The position numbers and the translations under genes are program-made. This document shows, in pieces, positions 48,562 through 50,212 of a DNA stretch of 64,000 nt (position 1 is the stretch's first letter; each line of letters starts with the position of its first letter). The notes beneath the pieces were generated by a model. That model made no database searches. It worked only from the letters and a program-made list of their open reading frames with translations, and was not told where the DNA came from. The stretch covers positions 930,001 through 994,000 of the forward strand of contig NZ_JAMZFY010000002.1 in the NCBI RefSeq assembly GCF_025457605.1, read 5' to 3'. The stretch comes from Haloarcula laminariae. Its GTDB lineage: Archaea > Halobacteriota > Halobacteria > Halobacteriales > Haloarculaceae.

Positions 48562-49170
48562 GTGGGACTGTACGACCGGTATCTCGCCCTCCGAATCCGG
48601 CGGAGCGACGCCGCCCTCCCCGAGACGGTCGCGCTGGTCATCACCGAGCGGGACCTGTTGACAGACGGCGCCTACACCACTCTGGAGCGGTTCTTCGAGT
48701 GGGCGGTCCAGTACGGCGCCGAGACCATCGTCGTTTACGTCTCCGTCCTGGACGAGGAGGTGGTGCCGACGCTCCGGCGGGAGCTGTCGGCCCTCCGCGC
48801 GCCGGCGGCCGTTGCCGTCCGCGGACCGGGCGACCAGCGAGCGGCCGACGCCCCCATTCAGATTTCCATCGGGCTGGGCGGTCAGTCGGAGTTCGCGACG
48901 GCGGTCCGCAAACTCGCCGAGCGCGTCGATTCGGGCGAGCTCGCCCCCGCGAGCATCGACGAGGCGGCCGTCGAGGAGCATCTCGTCTTCCCGACCGCGC
49001 CGGACCTGGTCATCAAGACCGGCGCCGAGCGCCTCTCTGACTTCATGATATGGCAGTCGGTGTACTCGGAGCTGTACTTCACCGACGTGAACTGGCAGAA
49101 CGTGCGCAAGCGCGACTACCTCCGGGCGTTACGGGACTACCAGGAACGGCAGCGTCGGTTCGGACGCTGA
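48562..49170 (+). CDS. Degenerate UppS-family protein, catalytic site lost, RxG retained (NgBR-like)
   Basis: 202 residues from GTG 48562, with a TATA-like TTTTAGG about 25 bp upstream. It is a cis-prenyltransferase by fold: 'TGAERLSDFMIWQSVYSELY', 'FTDVNWQNV' and the C-terminal RxG (R199-F200-G201) match the C-terminal half of UppS. But the P-loop catalytic motif is gone: where the family has D-G-N-x-R, this protein reads ALVITERDLLTDG (residues 24-36), the aspartate being aligned with T28. The whole N-terminal half is also shortened. By analogy with eukaryotic NgBR, the protein should be a non-catalytic partner of the true synthase at 49,295-50,212, which lies 124 bp away in convergent orientation. 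Confidence 0.8.
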   Translation: MGLYDRYLALRIRRSDAALPETVALVITERDLLTDGAYTTLERFFEWAVQYGAETIVVYVSVLDEEVVPTLRRELSALRAPAAVAVRGPGDQRAADAPIQISIGLGGQSEFATAVRKLAERVDSGELAPASIDEAAVEEHLVFPTAPDLVIKTGAERLSDFMIWQSVYSELYFTDVNWQNVRKRDYLRALRDYQERQRRFGR

Positions 49171-49294
49171 GCGAAACGACCCAGACATCGACGACCGATG
49201 TGAACGCCGGACGACGACAGCACTCCCCGCCGGTCAGCTGGCCGTTCGGCGGCGGGCTCGACGCGGTTCGCGGTCACCAGTCCGCTCGGGGCCC

Positions 49295-50212
49295 TCAATC
49301 CGCCGTCTCCAACTCGCCGTTTAGCTCCTCGCGCTCCTTGCTCGGCAGGGCGTCGCGGAACCGACCCAGCGCCCGCCGGGCCTGTGGGAGGTCGGCGTCC
49401 TCGACGGCCTGGACGAGCGACATCGCGCGTCGGGCGCGGGTAGTCCGCCAGGAGGCCTCGCGGTTCTGGTAGGTACGGATGGCCCGCAGGAAGTCGATTT
49501 TCCGGAACTCCGGCCAGTAGGGGGCACAGAAGAACGTCGCGGCCTCGTTGCCGTTGGCGTGCCACGGGAGGAAGTTCGAGGTGCGCTCGTCCCCGCCGGT
49601 CCGGACGATGAGGTCCACGTCGCGGGTGGGCCCCTCGTAGAGGCAGCGTTCGATGGTGTCGGCGTCGATGTCGGCGGGGGCGAGCTCGCCCGCGTCGACG
49701 CGCTCGGTGACGTCGCGGGCCGCACCGAGCAGTTCCGCGCGGCCGCCGTAGGCCAGCGCGATGTTGAGGTTGAGGCGGTCGTAGCTCCCGGTCCGGGCCT
49801 CGGCGTAGTCGATGGCGTCCCGGACCCGCTCGGGGAGCATGTCTATCTCGCCGATGGCGCGGATGCAGACCTCGGCCTCGTGGACGCGGTCGGCGTCGGC
49901 GAAGCTGCGGAGCTTCTCCTCGACCAGGTCGAAGATGTACTCGCGTTGCTCCGGGGGCCGGTCGAAGTTCTCGGTCGAGAAGGTGTACAGCGTCACCTCG
50001 TCGATGCCGAGGTCGTCACACCAGTGTAACAGCGCCTCGGTGGTCTCGGCGCCCTCGCTGTGGCCCTGTGTCGTCTCGACGCCCTGTTTGCGGGCGTAGC
50101 GTCGGTTCCCGTCCTGAATGACCGCGACGTGGCTGGGCGTTCCCGACAGTTCCCGCTGTAGTACCCGCTCGTATGCCCCGTAACCCAACTGCACGATCCG
50201 CTCTCGCATCAT
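49295..50212 (-). CDS. uppS: Cis-prenyltransferase (UppS family), catalytic subunit
   Basis: 305 residues from ATG 50212; ATG 50209 and 50221 are alternatives, and TTATCGG about 25 bp before 50210 favours 50209/50212. The catalytic loop is intact: HVAVIQDGNRRYARKQG with D34, then 'TLYTFSTENFDRP' and 'LIVRTGGDERTSNFLPW'. It should elongate FPP/GGPP with IPP in cis to give dolichyl-type polyprenyl diphosphate for N-glycosylation. Unlike bacterial UppS it lacks the 'AYxELYFTD' strand (here ANGNEAATFFCAPYW) and the RxG motif (here NREASWRTT), and has a helical C-terminal extension of about 45 residues. These are DHDDS-like traits. Confidence 0.9.
   Translation of the reverse strand: MMRERIVQLGYGAYERVLQRELSGTPSHVAVIQDGNRRYARKQGVETTQGHSEGAETTEALLHWCDDLGIDEVTLYTFSTENFDRPPEQREYIFDLVEEKLRSFADADRVHEAEVCIRAIGEIDMLPERVRDAIDYAEARTGSYDRLNLNIALAYGGRAELLGAARDVTERVDAGELAPADIDADTIERCLYEGPTRDVDLIVRTGGDERTSNFLPWHANGNEAATFFCAPYWPEFRKIDFLRAIRTYQNREASWRTTRARRAMSLVQAVEDADLPQARRALGRFRDALPSKEREELNGELETAD

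Follow-up and report, generated by a model that had tools for sequence, protein, structure and literature searches.

The 64,000-nucleotide stretch of Haloarcula laminariae DNA analyzed here, referred to as the window, contains two neighbouring genes, D and C, which very probably (probability about 0.87) encode a heteromeric cis-prenyltransferase made of two subunits, one from each gene, where D would supply an RxG motif in trans to the active site of C, and where the product most likely becomes a carrier for N-glycosylation. The evidence in hand consists of the complementarity of the two sequences, their co-retention, their synteny, their orthology to a pair of M. mazei proteins and the UppS/DHDDS/NgBR fold of both structural models; from it we infer a physical complex, a joint activity, a product chain length and a use in glycosylation. 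The initial annotation had already proposed a heteromer of the DHDDS/NgBR kind: this reading is supported by the complementary losses, the co-retention and the M. mazei orthology, but its novelty falls, because an archaeal system of this type is already known and published from M. mazei. No report of a haloarchaeal heteromeric cis-prenyltransferase was found in the open-licence literature; new here are the class- and phylum-wide extent of the system, the conserved convergent pair and the association with DUF92.

D (48562–49170, forward strand) encodes a 202 aa protein, the putative non-catalytic, NgBR-like subunit, devoid of the DGN loop and ending in QRRFGR, which includes an RxG. C (49295–50212, reverse strand) encodes a protein of 305 aa, the putative catalytic, DHDDS-like subunit, featuring a DGNRR loop and a C-terminal helical tail, with no RxG. 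A gap of 124 bp (49171–49294) separates the two convergent stop codons; positions and spacing are those indicated by the initial annotation. The start codon of D is a GTG, backed by the N-terminus M-G-L-Y-D-R-Y-L-A, which is conserved among relatives. Both proteins score above the Pfam cut-off for the cis-prenyltransferase family PF01255: C matches nearly the whole profile (3.1e-67), while D matches only over its C-terminal half (8.5e-26). No other homologue of this family was found in the genome by a whole-genome search. On the other side of D, and divergent from it, lies the gene for an integral membrane protein of the DUF92 family (PF01940; 47050–48399, reverse strand).

The motifs of the two proteins were compared by alignment with M. 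luteus UppS, whose numbering is used for the columns. C retains D29, G30, N31, R33, H46, F73, S74, N77, R80, R197 and R203, four of which (D29, N31, R197, R203) are present in all 36 C sequences of the tree described below; no RxG is found at its C-terminal end in this alignment. D features T-E-R at the D29-G30-N31 columns and contains neither the H46 region nor the N77/R80 region: the catalytic loop is lost in its entirety, as is the FSTEN..R motif. R203, E216, F219 and D221 are retained in D, together with the SVYSELYFTD strand and the terminal RRFGR. The intact catalytic loop and missing RxG of C, as well as the lost D-G-N and the RxG-containing end of D, had all been described from the sequence, and are confirmed by the alignment. 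The description of the A-Y-x-E-L-Y-F-T-D strand as absent from C needs to be corrected: the strand is changed, but not wholly lost, as it reads WHANGNEAATFFCAPYWPEF (in context, W-HANGNEAATFFCAPY-W) and retains, after a two-residue insertion, the glutamate at the E216 column.

The hallmark of homodimeric UppS, a DGN loop and an RxG in the same chain, is thus featured by neither protein. The division extends to their relatives: a C-terminal RxG is present in 170 out of 172 distinct D sequences and in 3 out of 145 sequences of the C class, which also takes in a few MM_0014-type proteins. Such a split is not due to chance.

Structural models were obtained for both proteins. The D model (pLDDT 83) shows the UppS fold; when analyzed by VIA-align it scores a Z of about 13 with NgBR chains over residues 1–202, tied with UppS and DHDDS; enzymes from plants and bacteria score like DHDDS and the NgBR chains, and NgBR is not singled out. 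For C (model pLDDT 79), human DHDDS is the best match in the PDB both by sequence (3.3e-45) and by fold. The helical tail attributed to C by the initial annotation is predicted indeed, as one long (238–269) and two short helices (276–288 and 291–303), but it is not universal, being short or absent in C-type proteins from several families. In the human complex, the RxG end of NgBR enters the active site of DHDDS, and the helix-turn-helix C-terminal domain of DHDDS makes the heterotetramer (PMC7573591). Because of the families with a short or absent tail, a tetramer may not be generally assumed for the archaeal pair.

According to the proposed mechanism, C would bind the allylic diphosphate, Mg2+ and IPP in its intact active site, with no RxG of its own, and D, which has no active site, would reach over the dimer interface with its ...RRFGR end and complete that of C, thus playing for C the role played by NgBR for DHDDS. 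The product would most likely be a C45–C60 polyprenyl diphosphate, leading to a dolichyl-phosphate-type carrier for N-glycosylation. This use is plausible: STT3/AglB-type homologues are present in the genome and the M. mazei pair MM_0618/MM_1083 is considered likely responsible for the synthesis of glycosyl carrier lipids (PMC8131916). The same two lines of evidence make it rather improbable that a heteromeric C/D enzyme mainly serves other purposes, such as exopolysaccharide or S-layer carriers, or membrane polyprenol, even if other lipid-linked glycan pathways exist in haloarchaea (PMC9943897) and the conserved partner gene of the pair is DUF92, not a glycosylation gene.

Phylogenetic relationships were analyzed by a maximum-likelihood tree of 74 sequences, with no full NUS1 sequence among them and an unsettled root, where D proteins form one clade (100/100) and C proteins another (97/81), each including the matching M. 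mazei protein. A topology joining the two window proteins is rejected (p-AU 7e-16). In a first tree, D grouped weakly (79) with bacteria and DHDDS. A recent loss in one lineage is ruled out as the origin of D, which is one ancient clade. M. mazei itself is among the sampled genomes (G322): one of its proteins matches MM_0014 (7CAQ), but for 1 out of 220 residues and the residue before/at the native start, while of the other two PF01255 genes one is a C and one a D. Judging from the tree, C and D are each orthologous to one member of the M. mazei pair MM_0618/MM_1083. Emi et al. 2019 (BBRC 520:291) is reportedly the source study for the M. mazei heteromeric enzyme. According to PMC8131916, which cites Emi 2019, MM_0618 combines with MM_1083 into a heteromeric enzyme of the cis-prenyltransferase type, with C45-50 products.

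MM_0014, in turn, is an active homodimeric cis-prenyltransferase with no RxG (PMC8131916), and because of this the missing RxG of C does not alone prove a need for D. C might act by itself, as a homodimer similar to MM_0014, with D as a separate regulator or scaffold not completing the active site; the retention in C of every catalytic residue, and of the glutamate at the E216 column, would fit with this. The C clade, however, is separate from the MM_0014 type in the tree, C does not feature the ITLGG end of those proteins, and the M. mazei orthologues of C and D are reported as heteromeric; furthermore, the RxG end of D is kept in nearly all sequences, as reported above. To our knowledge, no use is known for such an end other than the active site of a partner, and a self-sufficient C is held to be quite unlikely.

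The distribution of the heteromeric pair was evaluated in genomes sampled from the host phylum. Within Halobacteria, PF01255 matches are found in all 145 genomes and D in all of 141 sampled genomes; C is present in 140 of these 141, the exception being G072 (99% complete, 120 contigs). C and D are less than 6 kb apart in 108 of the 141 genomes, and in all 108 they are convergent; in 32 they lie either more than 6 kb apart or on different contigs, in some cases through contig breaks. For the whole phylum, a profile of haloarchaeal D proteins finds a match in 191 out of 197 genomes, mostly two matches, corresponding to D and C. The genomes with no match to this profile are all five sampled from family f17 (G151, G160, G169, G178, G185) and one 0.7-Mb, 76% complete assembly; in G151 and G169 no PF01255 match is found either. 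The division between D and C is seen in 24 of 26 genomes picked across the families of the phylum. Co-occurrence of the two types across Halobacteria, suggested as a check by the initial annotation, is therefore borne out, and the split extends phylum-wide. Genomes containing D but not C, which it had set against its own reading, are limited to G072, G326 and G295, all of them fragmented or draft assemblies.

Judged from gene content, the two-subunit cis-prenyltransferase appears near-universal in the phylum: it would be the rule in Halobacteria and in nearly the whole phylum, rather than a peculiarity of Methanosarcina. As the haloarchaeal rule, it could therefore turn genetically tractable haloarchaea into a simple model for DHDDS/NgBR. 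That D is instead a decaying paralogue with no remaining function, as the disappearance of its DGN loop and FSTEN..R motif might suggest, can be dismissed, since its conservation (about 80% mean column identity among 15 Halobacteria proteins, one ancient clade, presence in every sampled Halobacteria genome) rules out a pseudogene.

Some genomes depart from the simple pair. Two full catalytic C-type genes are found with one D in G061, G068, G098 and G105 (loci L150, L149, L151); the single D of each genome may thus act with either catalytic subunit, as in yeast, where Nus1 serves both Rer2 and Srt1. One haloarchaeal locus (L148, G002:C1:478000-480500) features a third PF01255 protein, very divergent, with no DGN and ending in ...SLRRNEGR. 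In genus g13 (G006, G011, G038, G065, G072, G097, G103, G133) an insertion between the halves of D splits the match in two; in G072, the sole one read, it is Asp/Gly-rich.

The presence of DUF92 beside D was evaluated in loci with at least 1.2 kb of sequence upstream of D, by scoring DUF92 genes on the opposite strand. Among Halobacteria, DUF92 adjoins D divergently in 7 out of 7 named loci, and in 41 of 50 sampled ones. It is also found beside D in 11 out of 11 Methanoperedentaceae, 2 out of 2 Methanocellales and 9 out of 10 other Methanosarcinales loci; none of the 32 Methanosarcinaceae and none of the 6 Methanophagales/ANME-1 loci feature it. The link between D and DUF92 holds in several genomes where C is located elsewhere, and DUF92 may be a functional partner of D. 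The plant phytyl-phosphate kinase VTE6 belongs to this family. It is tentatively suggested, with a likelihood well below even, that the archaeal heteromeric cis-prenyltransferase and DUF92 form a module, where DUF92 might be a polyprenyl/dolichyl-phosphate kinase, might perform another missing step of archaeal dolichyl phosphate synthesis, or might anchor the soluble D to the membrane, replacing the transmembrane segment of NgBR. No report tying DUF92 to a cis-prenyltransferase was found in the open-licence literature. Few prokaryotes contain homologues of dolichol kinase, and among the steps by which archaea make dolichyl phosphate, that saturating the alpha unit, at least, still has no assigned gene (PMC5088576); the conserved neighbour is a candidate for a partner, or for a missing step, in this metabolism.

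When compared with known systems, C and D share fold and PF01255 domain with the bacterial homodimeric UppS (E. coli, M. luteus), whose features are divided between them, C having the catalytic motifs and D the ELYFTD and the RxG. Enzymes of the MM_0014/MA1831 type (7CAQ, 7VQ9) belong to the same superfamily and, like C, do not contain an RxG; unlike C, they form a separate clade and are homodimers of a short chain ending in DITLGG. In human DHDDS/NgBR (6W2L, 6Z1N) the division of labour is the same as that proposed for C and D: DHDDS, like C, is catalytic, features a C-terminal helical domain and no RxG, while NgBR ends in R-x-G-K/R and D likewise ends with an RxG. There are differences: C contains a Glu at the E216 column, where human DHDDS contains a Cys, and the N-terminal membrane-anchor extension of NgBR/NUS1 is not seen in D, where the domain starts from residue 1. 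The term NgBR-like, as used here for D, does not imply orthology to NgBR. The M. mazei pair MM_0618/MM_1083, orthologous by the tree, is composed, as in the window, of a DGN-containing subunit with no RxG and of a DGN-less subunit with RxG. In M. mazei, however, the two genes are about 0.55 Mb apart and are accompanied by the third paralogue MM_0014, while in the window they are convergent neighbours, with no third copy, and the pair adjoins DUF92.
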